From positions 372,001 through 436,000 of the forward strand of contig NZ_JAENJH010000003.1 in assembly GCF_016595675.1 (NCBI RefSeq): a DNA stretch of 64,000 bases. The letters run 5' to 3'. Within the stretch, counting starts at the first letter, position 1. The number at the start of each line of letters is the position of its first letter. Positions 5,014 through 16,870 of the stretch are shown here, piece after piece. This DNA is from Prauserella cavernicola (GTDB lineage: Bacteria; Actinomycetota; Actinomycetes; Mycobacteriales; Pseudonocardiaceae). A model generated the notes under the pieces. That model saw only the letters and a list, made by a program, of their open reading frames with translations. It was not told where the DNA came from and did no database searches. Position numbers and translations under genes: made by a program.

Positions 5014-6545
5014 CGGTTGCCTTTCGTGGTCGTGGCGGCGCTCGCGCGCCAGAGGTACATGCCCGCGTAGGAACGCCAGGGCCGCCAGGCCTGTGCGTGT
5101 TCGGCGAGTCCGGCGGCGGTGTCGTCGAGGCCCAGCGCTGCCGCGCCCTTGCGGACGACGAGGTCGCCGCCGAGCAGGACGTCGGGCTGGCCGAGGACGC
5201 GCATGAGCACGTAGTCGGCCGTCCACGGCCCGATGCCGGGTGCGGCGAGGAGTTCGGCGCGCAGGTCCGGCGCGTCCCTGCCGACGTGGACGTCGAGGTC
5301 GCCCGTGGCGATCGCCTCGGCGACGGCCCGGATGGCCTCGATGCGTGCGCGCGGGCCGCGCAGGACGTCGGTGCCGTGCTCGGCGATGGTCGCCGCCGTG
5401 GGAAACAGCAGTCCGGGTTCGCCGTCGGACGCGCCCGGCATCGGCTCGCCCAGCTCGGTCGCGAGTCGCCCCGCAGCCGTGCGGGCAGCCGCGACCGACA
5501 CCTGCTGGCCGAGCATCGCGCGCAGCACGAGCTCGGTGCCGTCGACCGCGCCCGGAACGCGGATTCCCGGCGTCGTGGCCACCAGCGGGGCCAGCGCCGG
5601 GTCGGCGCCGAGGACCTGGGTCACGGCCTCGGGATCGGCGTCGAGGTCGAGCAGCCTCCGCACTCTCGCGACGGCGTTGCCGAGGTCGCGTACGTCGGTG
5701 AGCCGCAGATCGCAGCGGACGTAGCGGTCGGCGGGCGCCAGCCGGACGAACCCGCAGCCGTGGGGCAGCCGCAGCGTCCGGCGGTAGCCGTCGACGACGT
5801 CCTCGACCCCCGGGATCGCGCGGGCCGTCAGGAAGGCGAGCAGGCCGTCGGCGTCGAACGGTTCGCGGAACGGCAGCCGCAGGCTCAATCGGGCGCCGCC
5901 GGATGGCGTGCCGTTCTCGCCGCCTGCCTGTGCCCGCCTGCCCGCGGCCGCTGTGCGCAGCTGCGACGGCGTGGCCGCGAACACCTCGCGAATGGTGTTG
6001 TTGAACTGGCGCACGCTCGCGAACCCGGCCGCGAACGCGACGTCGGTGAGTGGCAGCTGCGAGAGCTCGATCAGCAGCCTCGCCGAGTGCGCGCGGTGGG
6101 CCCGTGCGAGCGCGAGCGGGCCCGCGCCCAGCTCGGCGGTGAGCACCCGGCCGAGCTGGCGCTCGGAATAGCCGAGCCTGCGGGCCAGCCCCGGAACGCC
6201 CTCACGCTCGACGGTGCCGTCCGCGATCAGGCGCATGGCCCTGGCGGCGAGGTCGGCGCGCACGTTCCACTCCGGCGAGCCCGGTACGGCGTCGGGCAGG
6301 CAGCGCCTGCAGGCCCGGTAGCCCCGCGACTGAGCCGCGGCCGAGGTCGGATAGAACTCCACGTTTCGGGCCTTCGGCGTCATCGCAGGGCAGGACGGCC
6401 TGCAGTAGATGCCGGTGGTGCGCACGGCCACGATGAACTGGCCGTCGAACCTCGAGTCGCGCGACATGACGGCGCGATAGCACCGTTCGGTGTCGTGCCA
6501 GAGGCTGTGGTGGGCCGGTGGGGCCTGCACGGTTGGCTGTGCCAT
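5010..6545 (-). CDS. alkA: Ada-type methyl sensor/AraC regulator fused to AlkA 3-methyladenine glycosylase II, 511 aa
   Basis: A three-part adaptive-response protein. Residues about 15-85 form the Ada zinc domain with Cys48, Cys52, Cys79 and Cys82; Cys48 (in TGIYCRPSCP) is the expected acceptor of methyl groups from phosphotriesters. An AraC-type helix-turn-helix follows (about 90-190; motif QFNNTIREVFAATPSQLR). The rest is AlkA: N-terminal domain, then HhH-GPD with GIGPWTADYVLMR and the catalytic Asp in LLGGDLVVRKG. Regulator and glycosylase are therefore one polypeptide, as in mycobacteria. It heads the operon with ogt and probably activates its own promoter when methylated. Confidence 0.94.
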   Translation of the reverse strand: MAQPTVQAPPAHHSLWHDTERCYRAVMSRDSRFDGQFIVAVRTTGIYCRPSCPAMTPKARNVEFYPTSAAAQSRGYRACRRCLPDAVPGSPEWNVRADLAARAMRLIADGTVEREGVPGLARRLGYSERQLGRVLTAELGAGPLALARAHRAHSARLLIELSQLPLTDVAFAAGFASVRQFNNTIREVFAATPSQLRTAAAGRRAQAGGENGTPSGGARLSLRLPFREPFDADGLLAFLTARAIPGVEDVVDGYRRTLRLPHGCGFVRLAPADRYVRCDLRLTDVRDLGNAVARVRRLLDLDADPEAVTQVLGADPALAPLVATTPGIRVPGAVDGTELVLRAMLGQQVSVAAARTAAGRLATELGEPMPGASDGEPGLLFPTAATIAEHGTDVLRGPRARIEAIRAVAEAIATGDLDVHVGRDAPDLRAELLAAPGIGPWTADYVLMRVLGQPDVLLGGDLVVRKGAAALGLDDTAAGLAEHAQAWRPWRSYAGMYLWRASAATTTKGNR

Positions 6546-6984: not shown

Positions 6985-8067
6985 GTGAGTCTCACCCTCG
7001 GCATCGTCGGACTGCCCAACGTCGGCAAGTCCACCCTCTTCAACGCCCTCACTCGCAACGACGTGCTCGCGGCGAACTACCCGTTCGCGACGATCGAGCC
7101 CAACGTCGGAGTCGTTCCGCTGCCGGATGCGCGCCTGGACAAGCTCGCCGAGGTGTTCGACTCGGCGAAGACCGTCCCGGCGACGGTGTCCTTTGTGGAT
7201 ATCGCGGGCATCGTGAAGGGCGCGTCCGAAGGCGCCGGACTCGGAAACAAGTTCCTCGCCAACATCCGTGAGGCCAACGCGATCTGCCAGGTTATCCGGG
7301 TGTTCGACGACCCGGACGTCGTGCATGTCGACGGCAAGATCGACCCGAACGACGACATCGAGACGATCAACACCGAGCTCATCCTCGCCGACCTGCAGAC
7401 GCTGGAGAAGGCGCTGCCGAGGATGGAGAAGGAAGCGCGCACGAAGAAGGAGGCGCGGCCGGCACTCGAGAACGCGCAGCGCGCCAAGGAGATCCTCGAC
7501 TCGGGGCGCACGCTGTTCTCGGCGCAGGCCGAGATCGACACCGACGGCCTGCGTGAGTTCAGCCTGCTCACCACCAAGCCGTTCCTCTACGTGTTCAACG
7601 CCGATGAGGGCGTGCTCGGGGACCAGGCGAAGCGCGACGAGCTGGCCAAGCTCGTCGCACCGGCGGACGCGGTGTTCCTCGACGCCAAGGTCGAGGCCGA
7701 GCTGCTGGAGCTGGACGACGAGGAGTCCGTGCGCGAGCTGCTCGAGTCGGTCGGTCAGTCCGAGCCGGGCCTCTACTCGCTCGCGCGGGCCGGGTTCCAC
7801 ACCCTCGGCCTGCAGACCTACCTCACCGCGGGCCCGAAGGAAGCGCGCGCGTGGACGGTCCCGCAGGGCGCCACGGCTCCGCAGGCGGCGGGTGTGATCC
7901 ACACCGACTTCGAGCGTGGCTTCATCAAGGCCGAGGTGGTCTCCTACGACGATCTGGTCGAGGCCGGTTCGATGGCGGCTGCCCGCTCGGCGGGCAAGGT
8001 CCGCATGGAGGGCAAGTACTACGTCATGGCCGACGGCGACGTGGTGGAGTTCCGCTTCAACGTCTGA
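6985..8067 (+). CDS. ychF: Redox-regulated P-loop ATPase YchF (OLA1 family), 360 aa
   Basis: Universally conserved Obg-like protein that binds ribosomes and hydrolyses ATP in preference to GTP. G1 is GLPNVGKST near the N-terminus. G3 is in FVDIAGIVKGASEGAGLGNKF. The G4-like sequence is NADE instead of NKxD, typical of YchF and the reason for its ATP preference. A coiled-coil insert occupies about 130-180. A C-terminal TGS domain ends in the family-typical FRFNV. The last 19 bp of the gene are duplicated at 12425-12443 and mark the insertion site of a mobile element. The insertion leaves the protein intact. The GTG start is probably leaderless. Confidence 0.97.
   Translation: MSLTLGIVGLPNVGKSTLFNALTRNDVLAANYPFATIEPNVGVVPLPDARLDKLAEVFDSAKTVPATVSFVDIAGIVKGASEGAGLGNKFLANIREANAICQVIRVFDDPDVVHVDGKIDPNDDIETINTELILADLQTLEKALPRMEKEARTKKEARPALENAQRAKEILDSGRTLFSAQAEIDTDGLREFSLLTTKPFLYVFNADEGVLGDQAKRDELAKLVAPADAVFLDAKVEAELLELDDEESVRELLESVGQSEPGLYSLARAGFHTLGLQTYLTAGPKEARAWTVPQGATAPQAAGVIHTDFERGFIKAEVVSYDDLVEAGSMAAARSAGKVRMEGKYYVMADGDVVEFRFNV
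8049..8067 (+). other. attL: 19-bp direct repeat within the ychF 3' end
   Basis: GTTCCGCTTCAACGTCTGA forms the last codons and stop of ychF and recurs exactly at 12425-12443. The flanking bases differ at both copies, so the identity is limited to these 19 bp. This is what site-specific integration into the 3' end of a conserved gene produces. Confidence 0.85.
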
Positions 8068-8068
8068 T

Positions 8069-8086
8069 CTGGGCCTGTTTTCCCAG
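8069..8086. terminator. Short hairpin between convergent ychF and int
   Basis: CTGGG and CCCAG arms (8069-8073, 8082-8086) enclose an 8-nt T-rich loop. The stem is only 5 bp and lacks a clear U tract, so it is a weak terminator candidate serving both genes. Confidence 0.3.
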
Positions 8087-8095
8087 CTCAGAGCG

Positions 8096-9082
8096 TTAGG
8101 CGGCCTCGCGATTCGTCACCAGTTCGTCAGGCTGACCGGCGACGTCGGCAAACAACCGGGATGATTCGAGCCGGGTGCGGCCCTCCGCGCTCGGCCACAG
8201 GTGGGCGTAGGTGTTGAGCGTGACTGTGGCGCTGGAGTGGCCTAGCGCCCGCTGAACGGCGACCACGTCACACCCCGCGGCGATCAACCCAGAGGCGAAG
8301 AAGTGCCGAAGGTCGTGTAGCCGCAGCTCCTCGCATCGCGCCGCCGTGCGGGTCAGCCGCCACCAGTAGCCGACCGTGTTCTGGTGAGGTGGGTCGCCAG
8401 CCGAGCCCTCGAAGAGCCAGCGGCTGGCCACGCCGTTCTGGCGGTAGGTCGCGATGTAGTCCTTCACCAGCGACAGCAGCTCATCGGACACGTGCACGAC
8501 CCGTTCAGAGCCGTACTTGGGCGCGCGGATCTCAACACCACGCCCGTTCTCGCGCTGAACCTGCCGGGACACGCTGATCTTGCCGCGCTCGAAGTCCAAG
8601 TCCGAGGCTCTCAGCGCGGCAGCCTCACCAAGCCTGAGACCAGCAAACGCACACAACGCCACGAAGGGCCTGAACCGCGGATCTGCCGACTTGAGCAGTG
8701 CTGCCACCTGACGCGGCGACGGCAATGACATCGCGACCTCAGCGCGACGAGTGCGCGGAAGGCGGACGCCCTCAGAAGGGTCGACGCCGATCAAACGGTC
8801 CCGCACCGCGCCCCGGAACACCGATCGGACGTTGTTGAAGCGCGTCCTGATCGTCCCGTCGCCTGACTGATGGCTATCACACCGAGCCGGAACCGCGAGC
8901 CTGGCAACATCGGCCGGCAGTGGGCGAGCAGCGGTCGCGGCCCCGACACGGCGTGATCGAGACGCCATCAGGCGACGGGATGACCACAAGCGCAGGTAGG
9001 TTCCCATCGCTCCCAACTCGGCAGCGGTGCGGCAAACACGGCGTGTCATGCGGTCGACGCCGCAAGTAACAACTCCGGTCAT
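8096..9082 (-). CDS. int: Tyrosine site-specific recombinase (integrase), 328 aa, unusual N-terminus
   Basis: The catalytic domain is complete: Arg150 (in AGLRLGEA), the beta-hairpin Lys189 (PKYGSERV), His256-x-x-Arg259 (LHDLRH), His282 (LGHSS) and nucleophile Tyr292 (NTYAHL). Residues about 78-108 (TIRTRFNNVRSVFRGAVRDRL) are the end of a SAM-like core-binding domain. Upstream of that the sequence is Arg-rich and does not resemble the usual arm-binding and core-binding halves. The N-terminal region is therefore probably decayed or frameshifted, although no single frameshift restoring it is obvious. The true start is uncertain. It lies beside attL, convergent with ychF, and is the likely agent of integration at the 19-bp repeat. 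Confidence 0.88.
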   Translation of the reverse strand: MTGVVTCGVDRMTRRVCRTAAELGAMGTYLRLWSSRRLMASRSRRVGAATAARPLPADVARLAVPARCDSHQSGDGTIRTRFNNVRSVFRGAVRDRLIGVDPSEGVRLPRTRRAEVAMSLPSPRQVAALLKSADPRFRPFVALCAFAGLRLGEAAALRASDLDFERGKISVSRQVQRENGRGVEIRAPKYGSERVVHVSDELLSLVKDYIATYRQNGVASRWLFEGSAGDPPHQNTVGYWWRLTRTAARCEELRLHDLRHFFASGLIAAGCDVVAVQRALGHSSATVTLNTYAHLWPSAEGRTRLESSRLFADVAGQPDELVTNREAA

Positions 9083-9132
9083 GATCGCGACCTAAGGTAA
9101 AGAGATGCCTTGAGCGGCGCGTATCAAGTGAG

Positions 9133-10782
9133 GTGAGCACGAAGGTGGTAGCAAAGCGTCAACGCCTCCGTAGCACGTTTACATTAGGGGGTGAACAAGC
9201 TGAGGCAGATGGTCTTCTCGACGATGCATTTTACGAATCGGACGACTTCGCCGTAATATCGTCCCGCGAAGATAAGCGATGTTTTGTCGTAGGAAGAACC
9301 GGTTCGGGAAAGTCGGCCGCGTTGCAGCGGCTTGAAGAGCTGAATCCAGATCGCGTGATTCGGGTAAGTCCAGAAGATCTATCGTTGCCGTATATTACCA
9401 ATCTTCAGGCAATCAGGTATCTAGACTCGCTTGACATCAATCTCGACAATTTCTGGACAACTCTTTGGAAGCATGTACTACTGGTCGAGATTATTAAGCA
9501 CCGATACAAAGTTAACTCACCAGCCGCGAAGCAGAAATTCCTGGATGAAATTCGCGATCGGGTTCGACGCGATAAGGCGAAGCGAGCCGCTCTCGACTAC
9601 CTTGATGAGTATGAAGGCCGCTTCTGGGAAGAGGCGGACGAGCGGGTAAGGGAAATAACGCAGAAGTTCACCGAAAGAATTGACGCGGAAACAGCTGCTG
9701 GCGCAAAGATTGGCAGTGTGGCGAGCGTAAATTTCGGCAGCAAAGAAGGACTCGAGACTTCTAGTGAGTTTACCGAGGAGCGAGTCGATCGATTCCAGCG
9801 GATCGTGAATGATACGCAACTAGCAAGACTCAATAAGATGCTCAATGTGTTAGATGACGAAGTGCTGAACAGGCCGCAGCTGTTTACATATGTTGTCATC
9901 GACGACCTGGATCGAGACTGGGTTGACGAGCGAATCGCAAATGATCTCATCCGGTGCTTATTTCGCACCGTGATCGACCTCAAGCGAGTGCGACATCTCA
10001 AGGTTCTTGTGGCCCTTCGTACTAATATCTTTCAGGAGCTACAGTTCGGTCGTCGAGGAGGCGGGCAGGAAGAGAAATTTCGTGCGCTGGTGCTTCTAAT
10101 GAAATGGACGAAACCAGACTTGGCCGAAATGCTCGATGAGCGAGTTAAAGTAGCTGCATCGAAGGCGGAGCTGGAGCTGAAGTCCATATCCGATCTTCTC
10201 CCTAATTCAAATAAGTCACGAGGGAATCCCTTGGACTACATGTTGGATAGAACCCTCATGAGACCTCGGGACGCCATTTCTTTCGTGAATGAGTGCTTGA
10301 CCCTTGGCGTGGGAAATGACCGACTAACTTGGTCGGATATATCTTCTGCCGAGCAATCTTACTCTTCGAAAAGATTGCTCGCTTTGCGAGATGAATGGAA
10401 ACAGACCTACCCCGACATAGATCAAGTATTTGAGAAATTCCGAGAAAGCCCTCTGGCGATGTCCAAGCAAGACCTCCAGGAGCGTCTCGACTCGGCGATG
10501 CTCCTCCTATCGGAGCCGAAATTCGCGGGAGTTCGGTGGATGACTGATGTCACGAATGCAATGTGGAATTCGGGGCCCGATACATCGTGGTTTGATCTCT
10601 ATCAGCCGCTTCTGAAGGTTCTCTTTACGGTTGGCCTAATAGGATGTTCTCGAAGCGACATTCGGCGGGCGGTCTTCTATTCAGAAGACCCACTTTTTAT
10701 CGATCAGAGAAGTAATGTTCAGACGACTCGGTCGTTTTTTGTACACCGCTCTTTTCATCGCGCCCTAGATATCAGGTCGTGA
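9133..10782 (+). CDS. P-loop ATPase resembling the Sll1717 family, 549 aa
   Basis: Walker A GRTGSGKS at residues 54-61 is preceded by RCFVVG. Walker B VVIDDLD lies at about 254-260, followed by a sensor-like VLVALRTN strand. Between them is a charged, helical insert (about 110-240). The C-terminal half is helical with no known catalytic motif. The FVVGRTGSGKSA/DDLD pattern resembles ATPases annotated as Sll1717-family or KAP-like; this is recalled, not searched. GTG 9133 opens the frame, but GTG 9145 has a better-spaced gaggtgag ribosome site. GC is much lower than in neighbouring genes, indicating transfer. It is divergent from int; its partner could be the HNH gene downstream. Confidence 0.8.
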   Translation: MSTKVVAKRQRLRSTFTLGGEQAEADGLLDDAFYESDDFAVISSREDKRCFVVGRTGSGKSAALQRLEELNPDRVIRVSPEDLSLPYITNLQAIRYLDSLDINLDNFWTTLWKHVLLVEIIKHRYKVNSPAAKQKFLDEIRDRVRRDKAKRAALDYLDEYEGRFWEEADERVREITQKFTERIDAETAAGAKIGSVASVNFGSKEGLETSSEFTEERVDRFQRIVNDTQLARLNKMLNVLDDEVLNRPQLFTYVVIDDLDRDWVDERIANDLIRCLFRTVIDLKRVRHLKVLVALRTNIFQELQFGRRGGGQEEKFRALVLLMKWTKPDLAEMLDERVKVAASKAELELKSISDLLPNSNKSRGNPLDYMLDRTLMRPRDAISFVNECLTLGVGNDRLTWSDISSAEQSYSSKRLLALRDEWKQTYPDIDQVFEKFRESPLAMSKQDLQERLDSAMLLLSEPKFAGVRWMTDVTNAMWNSGPDTSWFDLYQPLLKVLFTVGLIGCSRSDIRRAVFYSEDPLFIDQRSNVQTTRSFFVHRSFHRALDIRS

Positions 10783-11254
10783 TGCTCTGGAGGGATCGGC
10801 CGCAGCTTTGCCTTTGATGGACGGTTGGCCCCGTTTCAGAATCGACAGTTCATTCTGGGTAAACAGGCGTCGGCTTTCAGCGCTGACCTACGACCAGGGC
10901 CAGCGTCGTATCCGTGACTGGGGAGAGGTTCAATGAAGATCGACCAGGGTCGTGTCTCGGCTTGTACTCTCGACATTCGTCAATCGATCGCCAGGGAGTG
11001 TATCTAGCACGAAAAACGACTGTCACAGCGGGAACGCCCAGGTTAGCTGCAAACTTGGGCGTTCCCGCAGAAGTCGAACGTCGTTCGATAGGCCGCCCGG
11101 ATGTCAAATTCGTGCCACATCGCGTCCGCAAAACGCGGCAGATGTCGGGAGCTGTCGATACCGATTAGTGCATGTGAAGGCGACGAGGTACCGAGGCCCG
11201 ACGGGGCCCTTGGTGTATCCACGTTCTTCCCGGCGGATCTCTAAATCGCAGGTT
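10783..11254. other. Non-coding spacer inside the element
   Basis: This 472-bp stretch separates the ATPase stop from the HNH gene stop. I see no credible gene: the frames crossing it lack ribosome sites and run through a palindrome. It holds a TACGAC-N10-GTCGTA dyad at 10889-10910 and the long hairpin at 11028-11068. The two flanking genes converge here. Confidence 0.6.
11028..11068. repeat. Long palindromic hairpin A (GGGAACGCCC family)
   Basis: A perfect 13-bp stem, GCGGGAACGCCCA pairing with TGGGCGTTCCCGC, continues through one G-U and three further pairs to a 7-nt loop, giving about 17 bp. It shares the 14-mer GGGAACGCCCAGGT with the second structure at 12372-12411. It could be a bidirectional terminator for the convergent ATPase and HNH genes, or a dispersed REP-like unit. 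Confidence 0.7.
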
Positions 11255-12250
11255 TCATGCACCCTTGTCACGCACGTGCTGAATCACGTCTTGTAGCTCA
11301 GCAGGTGTTAGCCAGTGGGCTCCGCGGTGGATCATACGATGGCAGTTGGAACATAGGACTGCGAGGTCATTCAGCCGCGTTTCTGTTTGCCCGGTGATGT
11401 GCAGCGGCGTGACGTGATGGACCTCGGCGTACCGCGCTCCTCGTTCGCCGTAGGTTCGTTCGAAGTCGAAGCCGCAGACCTCGCACTCGAGGCAGCCTCG
11501 TTCGGCAAGTACCCGGTCGATCTTCTTCGCTCGTAGTTTTGGGTTTCGCTCGCGTCGCAGGTGGAGGAGGACGAGGGCGCGGCCTTCGGCTGCTGCTTCC
11601 TCCTCGTCGATGTCAGCGGCGAAGGGTAGCTCGGTGAGTTGACCAGTGGCGATGCCTGCGCGGATCGCGGCTGCCTGTGCGTGCATCTCCTCGGGGCGAT
11701 CGAGGAAGGCTTGCAAGATCTCCTTGTCGAGCTTGCCGCCCCGGGTTGGTTTGCCGTCGTAGTCGGGGTGCTGAGTCGCGATGTCGAAGGTCTTGCGCTG
11801 CACGCTGTTGGGGTTGCGGAAGGTCTCGCCACGGGACTCTGGCGGGTGCAGTGGGAGCTGTTGCAGTGCCTACGACAGCTCGATTGTCCTCTGCTCATGC
11901 GCCCGGATGCCTTGCCAGGTGTTGCGTGCGACGAGATCACAGGCGAGCACGAGTTCCGATTCAAGCCACGCCGGGTTCCGCCCAGAGCGCACCTCGAACC
12001 CGAGGGACCGGAGCAGTGCTACGACCGTCTCCAGTCCTCCCGAGAACTCATTCGGGCTGAGGGCCTGCTCATCGGGCAGGTAGCCGTGGGCGACCCCGAC
12101 GATCGCTTTCGAGTCGTACTCCCGGCCGTCGTGGACGAGGGTGTAGGTGCGAGCCGGGCCGAACCCATAGCGATTGAACCCAGCAGGGTCACGATCGTGC
12201 TCGTCGATGGCAGCGAGGACGGCCTCGCGCGTGATCTCTCGCATGCTCAC
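11255..12250 (-). pseudogene. ScoMcrA-like HNH endonuclease gene interrupted by one in-frame TAG
   Basis: One continuous frame encodes an N-terminal head (MREITREAVLAAIDEHD, then GFGPARTYTLVHDGREYDSKAIVGVAHG) and a C-terminal HNH nuclease. The zinc Cys pairs are in CEVCGFDF and CSNCHRMIH; the catalytic core is EVHHVTPL and LNDLAVLC. The only break is TAG at 11870-11872, right after TIELS. The downstream sequence ALQQLPLHPPESRGETFRNP continues in the same frame, so CAG-to-TAG is the simplest history. The head resembles type IV restriction-like ScoMcrA proteins (recalled). The start is GTG 12250 or ATG 12244. The 3' part alone could restart at GTG 11803 and yield a 182-residue HNH protein. Calls possible: recent pseudogene, sequencing error, or amber read-through. 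Confidence 0.8.
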
Positions 12251-12371
12251 GGCGAGGACGCTACTGGCTGCCACTGACAGATCAACTCCGTCGCTCGAAC
12301 CTCCCGCGGCTGATCGTCAATCGTTCGTCAGGACACCCATCCGGCACAGCAAACGACCACCGTCGACGAGT

Positions 12372-12411
12372 GGGGAACGCCCAGGTCAGGACGCATGCCC
12401 GAGCGTTCCCC
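12372..12411. repeat. Palindromic hairpin B near attR
   Basis: GGGGAACGC (12372-12380) and GCGTTCCCC (12403-12411) form a 9-bp stem around an imperfectly paired interior. The left arm carries GGGAACGCCCAGGT, identical to 14 bases of hairpin A. It lies 13 bp inside the right repeat of the element. Hairpins A and B flank the HNH gene. Confidence 0.6.
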
Positions 12412-12424
12412 CAGGTCGCGATTT

Positions 12425-12443
12425 GTTCCGCTTCAACGTCTGA
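12425..12443 (+). other. attR: right copy of the 19-bp repeat
   Basis: Identical to 8049-8067. Sequence after it (GCCCGGCCCGGTAG...) should be what followed ychF before integration, so excision would place it directly behind the ychF stop. Confidence 0.85.
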
Positions 12444-12486
12444 GCCCGGCCCGGTAGAAAAGATCTTCGCCCGGGTTGTCGAATAC

Positions 12487-12542
12487 GGTTGCTCCCGATC
12501 GACGCACTGACGAGAAGCACGTCAGCCAGGCAAGGAGCAACC
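12487..12542 (+). promoter_or_regulatory. RNA structure that would hide the ribosome site of the DHFR-like gene
   Basis: GGTTGCTCC (12487-12495) pairs perfectly with GGAGCAACC (12534-12542). Nested inside, CTGACG (12507-12512) pairs with CGTCAG (12520-12525) around a 7-nt loop. The right outer arm contains the GGAG Shine-Dalgarno, ending 2 nt before the ATG at 12545. Folding would block initiation. It could be a thermosensor or protein-controlled switch; it matches no riboswitch class I know. Confidence 0.5.
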
Positions 12543-12544
12543 AC

Positions 12545-13120
12545 ATGCGTACCCTCATCGCCACCGCGTTCGTCTCGCTCGACGGCGTCGTCGAGGCGCC
12601 CGGCGGGGAGCCCGGCTATCGCAACTCGGGCTGGACGTTCAAGGACGTCGAGTTCGACCCGGCCGCGTTCGAGCTCAAGGGGCGCGAGCAGGGCGAGGCG
12701 ACGGCGATGCTGATGGGCCGCGTCAGCTACGAGGCGTTCTCGCCGGTGTGGCCGGACATGACCGAGGACTTCGCCGGCTACAACGCCATGCCGAAGTACG
12801 TCGTGTCCACCACGCTGCGCGAGCAGGACCTGGTGACCAACTGGGGCGAGATCACGATCTTACGGTCGCTGGACGAGGTCGCCGCGCTGAAGGAGACCGA
12901 CGGCGGGCCGATCAGCATCCACGGCAGCGCCGAACTGAACCGCAACCTCGCGGACGCCGGCCTGATCGACCGGTACCACCTGCTGGTGTTCCCGGTGCTG
13001 CTCGGCGCGGGTAAGCGGCTTTTCAGCGACAGCGACAAGGACAAGCAGAACCTGTGGCTCGTCGAGAGCGAGTCCTACGGCAACGGCATCCAGAAGCTGG
13101 TCTACGACGTCGTCCGCTGA
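12545..13120 (+). CDS. Dihydrofolate-reductase-family (RibD C-terminal-like) protein, 191 aa
   Basis: The N-terminus RTLIATAFVSLDGVVEAPGG, the central GRVSYEAFSPVWP and KYVVSTTL, and the C-terminal ISIHGSAELNRNLADAGLIDRYHLLVFPVLLGAGKRLF are typical of the large group of NADPH-dependent RibD_C/DHFR-fold reductases. These are common in actinomycetes and mostly lack a known substrate. ATG 12545 follows AAGGAG with proper spacing; an in-frame extension upstream has no ribosome site. It is the first chromosomal gene after the ychF element, and its leader can form an SD-masking hairpin. A role in classical folate metabolism should not be assumed. Confidence 0.85.
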   Translation: MRTLIATAFVSLDGVVEAPGGEPGYRNSGWTFKDVEFDPAAFELKGREQGEATAMLMGRVSYEAFSPVWPDMTEDFAGYNAMPKYVVSTTLREQDLVTNWGEITILRSLDEVAALKETDGGPISIHGSAELNRNLADAGLIDRYHLLVFPVLLGAGKRLFSDSDKDKQNLWLVESESYGNGIQKLVYDVVR

Positions 13121-13178
13121 GGACACGTTCGTGCCGAGGCAACCGGTTTTTCGGCTGCCTCGGCACGAGTGAGTCGGA

Positions 13179-13283
13179 TCAGCCCGCCGCGGCGAGCAGA
13201 ATCACGAACAGCAGGGTGACGGTGACCGCGAAGGCGGTCACGACGGCTTGCTGGCTCGGCGACAGTACGGGGGCGCGGTTCAT
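13179..13283 (-). CDS. 34-residue single-span membrane protein
   Basis: MNRAPVLSPSQQAVVTAF followed by a hydrophobic stretch of about 20 residues (VTVTLLFVILLAAAG) at the C-terminus. The ATG at 13283 follows a GGGGA ribosome site. It could be a subunit of a membrane complex, but no family is recognised. It lies about 95 bp downstream of another small membrane protein on the same strand. Confidence 0.55.
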   Translation of the reverse strand: MNRAPVLSPSQQAVVTAFAVTVTLLFVILLAAAG

Positions 13284-15248: not shown

Positions 15249-16870
15249 CGCTGCGCGCACGGGCGCGTGGTTCGGCCGCGGGAGTCACGCTGCTCGCGGT
15301 GTTGCCCATCGCGTTCCTCGCCGTCTTCTTCGCGTGGCCGGTCGTGGCGATCCTGCGGCTGGGCTTCGCCGACGGCGGTGTCGCGACGGCGCTGGCCCAG
15401 TCGCAGACCTGGGAACTGGCCGCGTTCACCGTGGCGCAGGCGGCCGCGTCCACCGTGGTCGCCGTGCTCGCGGGCTTTCCCGTCGCGTTCCTGCTGGCGC
15501 GTGTGCGCCTGCGCGGGGCGGGACTCGTGCGCACGTTCGTGCTGGTGCCGTTCGTGCTGCCGACCGTCGTGGTGGGGCTCGCGTTCAAGGCGTTGTGGCC
15601 CGACGGCGGCGTGTTCACGATCGTGCTGGCCAACGCGTTCTTCAACGTCGCCGTGGTGGCCCGCACCGTCGGCGGGCTGTGGGCACACCTGGACCGGCGT
15701 GGCGAGGACGCGGCGAGGGCCCTCGGGGCGTCGCCGTGGCGGGCGTTCCGCTCGGTGACCCTGCCGGCGCTCGCTCCGGCCGTCGCGTCGGCGGCCGCGG
15801 TGGTGTTCCTGTTCTGCGCCACCAGTTTCGGCGTGGTCCTCATGCTCGGTGGTGCCCGCTACCGCACGCTCGAGACCGAGATCTACCTGCGGACCGTGAA
15901 CCTGCTCGACCTCTCCGGCGCCGCCGCGCTGTCGATCGTGCAGCTGGTGGCCGTGCTCGCCGCGCTGGCGATCGGCGCGCTGGCCCGCAGGCGCAGGGAG
16001 ACCGCGGTGCGGCTGCGCGCCAAGGGCGAGACGGCCCGCAGGCCGGAGGGACGCGAGTGGTGGGTGGTCTCCGCCGCGTTCGGCGTGCTCGCGCTGCTGC
16101 TGGTGCCGATCGCGGCGCTGGTGGTGCGGTCGTTCGCGACCCGCGACGGCTGGAGCCTGGCGGGTTATCGCGCGCTGTCCACGGGTGGCGAGAACGGCAC
16201 GCTCGACGTCAGCGGCTGGGACGCCGCGCTCAACTCGCTGCGCACGGCGTCGGACGCGACGATGCTCGCGCTCGTCGTTGGCGTGCTCGCCGCGACGACG
16301 CTCGTCGCGTTGCGGCGCGCGCCGGGGCGCGGTGCGCGGGCGGCGGGCGAGGTGATGGACGCGGCTCTGATGCTGCCGCTCGGCGTCTCGGCCGTGACGG
16401 TCGGCTTCGGCTACCTCGTGACGCTCGGGGACCTGCCGTGGGATCTGCGCACGTCGCCGTTGCTCGTGCCGTTCGCGCAGGCGCTGGTGATCATCCCGCT
16501 CGTGGTGCGGATGGTGCTGCCCGTGCTGCGGTCGGTGGACGAACGCCTGCGCCAGGCCGCCGCGACGCTCGGCGCGAGCCCGGCCCGGGTGTGGCGCGAG
16601 GTCGATCTGCCGCTGGTCGCGCGGTCGCTCGCGGCGGCCGCCGCGTTCGGCTACGTGGTCGCGCTGGGCGAGTTCGGCGCCACGAGTTTCCTCGCCAGGC
16701 CGGACGCGCCGACGCTGCCGGTGGCCATCGGGTCGCTGGTGAACAGGCCCGGCGAGCTGAACAGCCAGATGGCCTACGCCGCGTGCACGTTGCTGATGCT
16801 CGTGACGGCGCTCGTGGCGATGCTGATCGAGCGGCTGCGCGCACCGCAGGCGCAGGTAGGGGAGTTCTGA
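15212..16870 (+). CDS. thiP: Thiamine ABC transporter permease, two-domain, 552 aa
   Basis: A fused permease with two binding-protein-dependent transport domains. Each carries an EAA-like cytoplasmic loop: EDAARALGASPWRAFRSVTLPAL in the first half and LRQAAATLGASPARVWREVDLPL in the second. About 12 hydrophobic segments are visible. Starts at ATG 15212 or ATG 15224 both overlap thiB (37 or 25 bp) and neither has a well-spaced ribosome site, so the exact start is open. It overlaps thiQ by one base. Fusion of both permease halves is the normal ThiP form. Confidence 0.93.
   Translation: MDRAMARADRGLTLRARARGSAAGVTLLAVLPIAFLAVFFAWPVVAILRLGFADGGVATALAQSQTWELAAFTVAQAAASTVVAVLAGFPVAFLLARVRLRGAGLVRTFVLVPFVLPTVVVGLAFKALWPDGGVFTIVLANAFFNVAVVARTVGGLWAHLDRRGEDAARALGASPWRAFRSVTLPALAPAVASAAAVVFLFCATSFGVVLMLGGARYRTLETEIYLRTVNLLDLSGAAALSIVQLVAVLAALAIGALARRRRETAVRLRAKGETARRPEGREWWVVSAAFGVLALLLVPIAALVVRSFATRDGWSLAGYRALSTGGENGTLDVSGWDAALNSLRTASDATMLALVVGVLAATTLVALRRAPGRGARAAGEVMDAALMLPLGVSAVTVGFGYLVTLGDLPWDLRTSPLLVPFAQALVIIPLVVRMVLPVLRSVDERLRQAAATLGASPARVWREVDLPLVARSLAAAAAFGYVVALGEFGATSFLARPDAPTLPVAIGSLVNRPGELNSQMAYAACTLLMLVTALVAMLIERLRAPQAQVGEF

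Follow-up and report, generated by a model that had tools for sequence, protein, structure and literature searches.

Actinomycete integrative and conjugative elements (AICEs) that use a tyrosine integrase are, in their vast majority, inserted at the 3′ ends of tRNA genes, the exception being the pSLS integrase subfamily; the text of PMC3218068 leaves the site of that subfamily unnamed, so that it may overlap with the integrases discussed below. AICEs also decay, and the passages of PMC9513070 on this process describe remnants consisting of a partial integrase, cargo, and two direct repeats. In Streptomyces, such defective AICEs (DAICEs) occupy AICE sites, protein-coding genes included (14 sites of this kind in all, with rlmN and a glycosyltransferase gene among those named there). 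Here, we describe a segment of about 4.4 kb at the 3′ end of ychF in Prauserella cavernicola (GCF_016595675.1, NZ_JAENJH010000003.1, positions 372,001–436,000; this 64-kb stretch is referred to as ‘the window’). We read it as an inserted element, best explained as the deletion remnant of an AICE-type element, that is, a defective AICE (probability about 0.8).

Decayed AICEs with a partial integrase, cargo, and direct repeats are thus known, and the part that we consider new is the ychF site together with its integrase clade; the site appears under-described. No published report of an attachment site at the ychF 3′ end was found in the literature searched, mostly without subscription journals and supplementary tables. 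The nearest precedent is a pneumococcal prophage integrated next to ychF, which, in the relevant parts of PMC8637289 and PMC6375853, differs in having its attB upstream of the gene, at the promoter, with another core and in another phylum.

Throughout, G numbers denote genomes of a family panel (297 genomes, including the window's own, G000, and its genus mates G001, G002, and G003) and L numbers denote individual loci.

An element with a truncated integrase between two copies of the ychF end

The segment is bounded by a 19-bp core, GTTCCGCTTCAACGTCTGA, present in two identical copies at 8049–8067 and 12425–12443. No further match was found in the window with up to three mismatches (0.01 expected) or elsewhere in the 7,209,600-base genome with up to two. 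An earlier note, made from the sequence alone, had reported this perfect repeat and asked for a search for unrelated copies; both copies are exact, and the genome holds no others. The left edge of the element is sharp, with four of 20 bases matching before the core. The features are as follows.

6985–8067, plus strand: ychF (redox-regulated ATPase YchF; TIGR00092, 424.7 bits), its final 19 bases being the left attachment core
8049–8067, plus strand: left core copy, at the ychF end (repeat search, core-pair comparison)
8096–9082, minus strand: truncated tyrosine integrase open reading frame (ORF) (PF00589, Phage_integrase, 6.7e-25), its end 28 bp from the ychF stop
8112–8130, plus strand: two putative integrase arm sites on the left side, both reading TTCGTCA (8112 and 8123), 11 bp apart
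8850–8995, no strand: 146-bp imperfect palindrome (DNA comparison)
9133–10782, plus strand: low-GC P-loop ATPase of the Sll1717 family, open frame (NF047389, 214.2 bits against a cut-off of 75; GC 0.50)
11255–11803, minus strand: McrA-type C-terminal piece with HNH domain (PF01844, 2.9e-10; PDB 6ghc, 8.4e-6), in the same frame as the next piece
11870–12274, minus strand: McrA-type N-terminal piece, ending at an in-frame TAG at 11870–11872 (PDLC03662, 1.1e-16; PDB 5zmm, 3.8e-15)
12308–12424, plus strand: conserved right arm, containing two TTCGTCA-like sites (12313 and 12324) (sequence comparison with relatives)
12425–12443, plus strand: right core copy (repeat search, core-pair comparison)

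Four ORFs are called inside the element, one each for the integrase and the ATPase and two for the pieces of the HNH gene. Among the features expected of an AICE, a site-specific integrase gene beside the att site is present, though truncated; no element ORF matches a replication initiator family (RepSA, RepAM, or Prim-Pol) or an FtsK/TraB-type transfer protein. Phage structural or packaging genes were likewise without a match among the window ORFs in family-profile searches (PHROGs not searched), and no tRNA gene was found in the window.

N-terminal parts of tyrosine integrases bind arm sites, and it is this part that the window integrase lacks. Clear homology to relatives is confined to about 8099–8860, the catalytic part, and stops where the palindrome begins. 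Full-length relatives at ychF measure 379–388 amino acids, and the homology of the window ORF begins at about their residue 127, so that about the first 126 of 379 residues (the first third) are missing. The earlier note had correctly placed a tyrosine integrase beside the left core copy, but its truncation, like the splitting of the HNH gene, had gone unseen. As for the putative arm sites, a pair of the left type, with one differing base allowed, recurs to within 1 bp of the same distance in L029, L032, L034, L036, L038, and L041, and the right arm is 83–90% identical to the right ends of L029, L040, and L035, and 72% identical to that of L031. Paired TTCGTCA-like sites were found in none of 10 more distant bounded elements tested.

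Relatives of AICE type at ychF and at tRNA-Leu

Two elements at ychF with related integrases carry the genes that the window element lacks. L029, from a genome of the same genus (G003), is a 13.7-kb element with RepSA (PF20199, 4.5e-149) and FtsK (PF01580, 3.7e-10), and its integrase is 80% identical to that of the window over the shared part. L267 (G119) is an 11.1-kb element with RepSA (1e-129) and an FtsK-like protein 43% identical to that of L029 (compared as L034). By similarity, L036 also has both RepSA and FtsK, and L041 has a partial FtsK-type gene. Like RepSA (pSAM2-like) AICEs, the window element has its integrase gene adjoining an att site on the 3′ end of a conserved gene, and two of its relatives at ychF carry RepSA and FtsK-type genes; unlike them, it has neither a Rep nor a Tra gene. 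Its make-up is that of a DAICE, with a partial integrase, cargo genes, and a direct repeat at either end, located where full AICEs with the same type of integrase also occur.

The window's own genome contains an apparently complete RepSA/FtsK AICE at tRNA-Leu (L255, G000:C33:293000-312000), in which the tRNA lies at 2340–2414 and its 3′ end recurs as a 39-bp repeat at 15613, 13.2 kb away. Its RepSA, FtsK, and third core protein are 81%, 77%, and 83% identical, respectively, to those of L029, while its integrase-like protein (PDB Integrase 3nkh, 4.8e-11) is only 26% like the L029 integrase over 150 residues.

The palindrome of the window links these elements, as the same palindrome lies between core genes and cargo in both L029 and L255; in L255, two unassigned cargo genes adjoin it. 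In L040, it follows the integrase ORF at a distance of 14 bp, and in L035 it lies about 400 bp past the last integrase match. We considered whether it might be a dispersed repeat family and rejected the idea, as only three strong copies besides that of the window occur in four genus genomes. It folds well as single-stranded DNA (z -4.24), and a conserved structure is unsupported, with two-sided changes in only three of 50 pairs. That it serves as a single-strand replication origin would be a guess.

A single deletion, running from within the integrase gene as far as the palindrome, would most simply account for the loss of the AICE core. The ancestral element would have integrated through an integrase-mediated crossover inside the 19-bp core and would have supplied an equivalent ychF end, so that YchF stayed intact. 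The later deletion would then have taken the N-terminal, DNA-binding part of the integrase together with the replication and transfer genes, leaving two ends, two presumed anti-phage cargo genes, and an integrase that could hardly excise the element. The element is probably fixed, unless a full ychF integrase is supplied in trans or the cores recombine.

Points against a remnant of an AICE, and the two nearest alternatives

Several observations weigh against this reading. With genes for replication and transfer missing from the window, the case for AICE ancestry has to be made from the integrase, the ends, and the palindrome, and neither excision nor the deletion itself was observed. A permissive blastp search stretches the match of the window integrase to residue 63 of L029, across the palindrome-derived part; the palindrome also occurs in a region of G003 (L256) where no AICE core gene tried gave a match; and the FtsK-like protein of L267 has no Pfam match. 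The edge of the right core is less sharp than that of the left, with seven of 12 and nine of 20 bases matching beyond it. A clean empty site was not found among the matches listed when the right flank of the window was searched in the 297 family genomes, and the arrangement predicted by the earlier note (ychF stop followed by GCCCGGCCCGGTAG) was not seen there either; nor did the right flank of the window follow ychF in any of the pattern loci (30 read; see below) where ychF was found. Finally, the best matches to the RibD_C gene (12476–13120) directly beyond the right core are located away from ychF in G001, G002, and G003, so that the right flank itself has been rearranged.

This RibD_C gene may itself have been inserted here in a separate event. 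It precedes a block, starting at 13,124–13,179 in the window, that G001 and G002 share downstream of ychF and that consists of small ORFs followed by what appear to be pterin-dehydratase-like and solute-binding-protein-like genes. Near ychF, G001 has a distant RibD_C-like frame (26%), and G002 retains a remnant of the ends of the window element. At that locus of G002 (L031; ychF from 842, end copy at 5909–5938, ORF at 6270), a different insertion swaps the last YchF residues from EFRFNV to EFRHGGTSSSKK, with the remnant of the window's element family behind it; with it lie what appear to be a HigB-like and a helix-turn-helix (HTH) gene. The possibility raised in the earlier note that the integrase and its neighbours belong to the ancestral gene order at this locus finds no backing, since a search at E 1e-30 gave no match to the integrase in two of the three genus mates.

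The best surviving alternative, though an unlikely one, is that the segment is a still-mobile, non-autonomous mini-island that uses a ychF integrase of another element in trans, and is thus cis-mobilisable. In its favour, neither core has been lost, nor has either set of arm-like repeats, and cis mobilisation of decayed AICEs is suggested in the passages of PMC9513070 on decay. The truncated copy is, however, the only match to the integrase in G000 at E 1e-30 or better, and the tRNA-Leu AICE of that genome carries the distant integrase described above.

Slightly less probable again is a small island that arrived complete with its present gene set, its integrase being truncated later and the whole being unrelated to AICEs. 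An element of similar size exists in Amycolatopsis acididurans (L040); it is 3.6 kb long, and gene calling gave one cargo gene and none for replication or transfer. Yet both L040 and L035 have the palindrome near the integrase, the position expected after loss of an AICE core, and the integrases of both look damaged: that of L040 fails to align over about the first 33 residues, and that of L035 has an internal stop. The earlier note had taken the segment for a very small island without structural or transfer genes; it is right that no such genes were matched, but we consider a deletion remnant of an AICE-type element the better description than a complete island.

An integrase clade at the ends of conserved protein genes

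The wider distribution of the integrase bears out the earlier proposal that an integrative element occupies a protein-gene 3′ end and that its core restores this end, as relatives of the integrase are found at the same place with other cargo. Within the family, 14 of 297 genomes (the window's own counted) have the integrase at E 1e-30 or better. Nine of the 13 others were read, and in six of these nine the integrase lies within 300 bp of the ychF stop (G003, G262, G111, G119, G296, and G176); four weaker matches (G060, G081, G177, and G246; 33–43% identity) were left out of the reading. In G028, the integrase stands between two copies of the ychF-end pattern, 10.5 kb beyond ychF.

Beyond the family, a profile of five integrases gathered 80 named actinobacterial loci. 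The integrase is within 300 bp of the ychF stop in 40 of them, ychF is further off in 14, and the stretch contains no ychF in 26 (three of which had less than 2 kb left on that side). The 40 loci include members of Pseudonocardiaceae, Streptosporangiaceae, Geodermatophilaceae, Nocardioidaceae, Micrococcaceae, Mycobacteriaceae, and Acidimicrobiaceae, and a convincing second core copy was seen in 12 of the 40 within the stretch examined, 3.6–11.1 kb away. The window integrase belongs to this clade at the ychF 3′ end, grouping with those of L029 and L040 (support 100).

Eighteen core pairs that enclose an integrase or a fragment of one were compared. Position 1 agrees in 17 of the 18, and each of the two preceding bases in two; positions 9–15 are identical but for one base in one pair, and mismatches gather at positions 5–8 and 16–19. 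In L262 and L114, identity continues past the stop. The pattern fits a crossover within TCAACGT.

Some relatives appear to have changed targets. Five loci without an adjacent ychF abut a yajQ-group gene at the integrase end (L100, L104, L109, L112, and L118), and three abut a menB-group gene (L098, L110, and L113); a fourth menB lies 1.4 kb from the integrase (L119, though labelled menB). One member of each group was checked, the L104 gene matching solved YajQ (2.2e-34) and the L098 gene matching MenB (1.4e-142). Repeats that span the element measure 20 bp in two yajQ loci and 16 bp in one menB locus. On a tree of 110 rows, the ychF label requires 16 changes versus 34.4 in shuffles (0 of 500 as low), with L066, which is on a very long branch and probably badly translated, counted among the 44 ychF rows; the corresponding values are three versus 4.9 (0 of 500) for yajQ and two versus 4.0 (1 of 500) for menB. 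In one clade of 18 rows, ychF is 1.5–8.3 kb away in 12; a core copy beyond the integrase in L056 suggests that this clade may comprise elements with an internal integrase.

The ychF end as a possible island hotspot in the family

A degenerate ychF-end pattern was found in 270 of the 297 family genomes (the reversed control gave one match). Two or more copies occur in 34 genomes, on one strand in 30 of these, and 28 of the 297 have two same-strand copies within 15 kb on one contig; wider pairs are those of G154 (over 4 Mb apart) and G243 (49.6 kb apart). In 25 of the 28, ychF itself ends in the first copy; in G028 and G143, both copies are beyond ychF, and the stretch read in G071 contained no ychF. 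An integrase of the window type, or a fragment of one, is present in nine of the 28 intervals (G000, G003, G028, G111, G119, G121, G176, G190, and G262), and a distant integrase in two (G080 and G136).

In the remaining 17 intervals, a panel of 11 integrases detected none at E 1e-5. Their cargo includes a HipA-like candidate defence gene (G033), AbiD (G016), SoFic (G086), an ApeA-like HEPN gene (G160), an Mrr-type type IV enzyme (G286), plain enzymes (G068), and genes without matches. Loci such as L234, L235, L241, L242, and L265, among others, show one or a few genes between two ychF ends, without an integrase and in several cases with candidate defence genes. In the 12 of the 17 that were compared, the second ychF end measures 19–158 bp, versus 17–20 bp in seven pairs (the window and six others) that enclose an integrase or part of one; the two classes overlap, since three of the 12 duplications are only 19–21 bp long. 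No shared end motif rose above shuffles in 10 integrase-less islands. We infer that these intervals would be insertions by homologous recombination, or eroded duplications, and so the product of a process other than that behind the integrase elements.

With regard to cargo, 74 interval proteins (integrases and AICE genes included) matched 45 PADLOC families at 1e-6, and an equal number of control proteins from the flanks (the first 74 of 113 listed) matched 17, the count being one of families matched and not of proteins with a match. The control matches include WYL, Csa3, TPR, and methyltransferase-like models as well as the candidate defence models PDC-M05A, M72A, and S23. An enrichment of defence genes in ychF-end intervals is suggestive only.

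These intervals also bear on two further accounts of the window element. Descent from a prophage integrated at ychF is very improbable: some ychF-end intervals are phage-like, and the 49.6-kb interval of G243 has a 34% match to an ORF of L060 that looks tape-measure-like, and at its far end an integrase 30% like that of L067; but the window ORFs include no structural gene, and the integrase relatives in 110 phage records are all below 60% identity to that of L029 (at most about 34% among 30 listed), as are those in four plasmid records. The G243 interval itself (pattern copies at G243:C1:2285854 and 2335438, L244 and L245), with its tape-measure-like match and distant integrase at the far end, is possibly a prophage at ychF. 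Insertion of the window segment by homologous recombination without an integrase, already disfavoured and equally improbable, would suit the integrase-less intervals and their duplications of 19–158 bp, hardly longer in three cases than those of integrase elements, but the window keeps an integrase relic and arm-like repeats and shares the 17–20-bp duplication of the pairs with an integrase.

Cargo of the window element

The ATPase and the McrA-like HNH nuclease are presumed to be anti-phage cargo. The ATPase gene is the lower-GC gene remarked on before, with a GC content of 0.50 versus about 0.65–0.70 around the element. Relatives occur in three other genomes of the 297 at E 1e-15, two of them full-length (55% and 51%) and one partial (31%), and no solved structure matching it by sequence was found.

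The two pieces of the McrA-type gene, searched apart, have between them an McrA-like N-terminal domain and an HNH domain, and the in-frame TAG interrupts what would otherwise be a single reading frame. Relatives of the N-terminal piece are found in 44 of the 297 family genomes (the window's own counted); the two nearest to the window copy belong to uninterrupted frames (332 and 335 codons), and some others contain stops. Relatives of both pieces occur together in L215, L216, L220, and L227. Most simply, the window copy is a gene carrying one nonsense codon. It resembles ScoMcrA and Escherichia coli McrA, the N-terminal piece through 5zmm and the HNH piece through 6ghc, but it is a gene of about 340 codons with an internal nonsense codon, whereas the 5zmm chain has 561 residues. 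The 5zmm entry, which is that of ScoMcrA, gives the name simply as McrA.

Implications

The element of the window is itself a relic. At little better than even confidence, we incline to a joint reading of the material above, in which the ychF 3′ end would serve actinobacteria in general as an attachment site and hotspot for islands. One clade of tyrosine integrases would have come to target the final codons of conserved protein genes, in most cases ychF but with shifts to yajQ and menB, much as tRNA integrases target the ends of tRNA genes. The site would be shared by AICEs, phage-like elements, and small islands, and integrase-less islands of one or a few genes, several with anti-phage genes, would enter by ordinary recombination via the duplicated ychF end.

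The window genome has at tRNA-Leu, and its genus mate at ychF, an AICE backbone of much the same kind joined to different integrases; this is a clear example of a site being switched through exchange of the integrase. Islands that tRNA-based searches would miss can be located simply by looking for a duplicated ychF 3′ end, and a universally conserved protein gene is added to the places where actinobacterial mobile elements settle.

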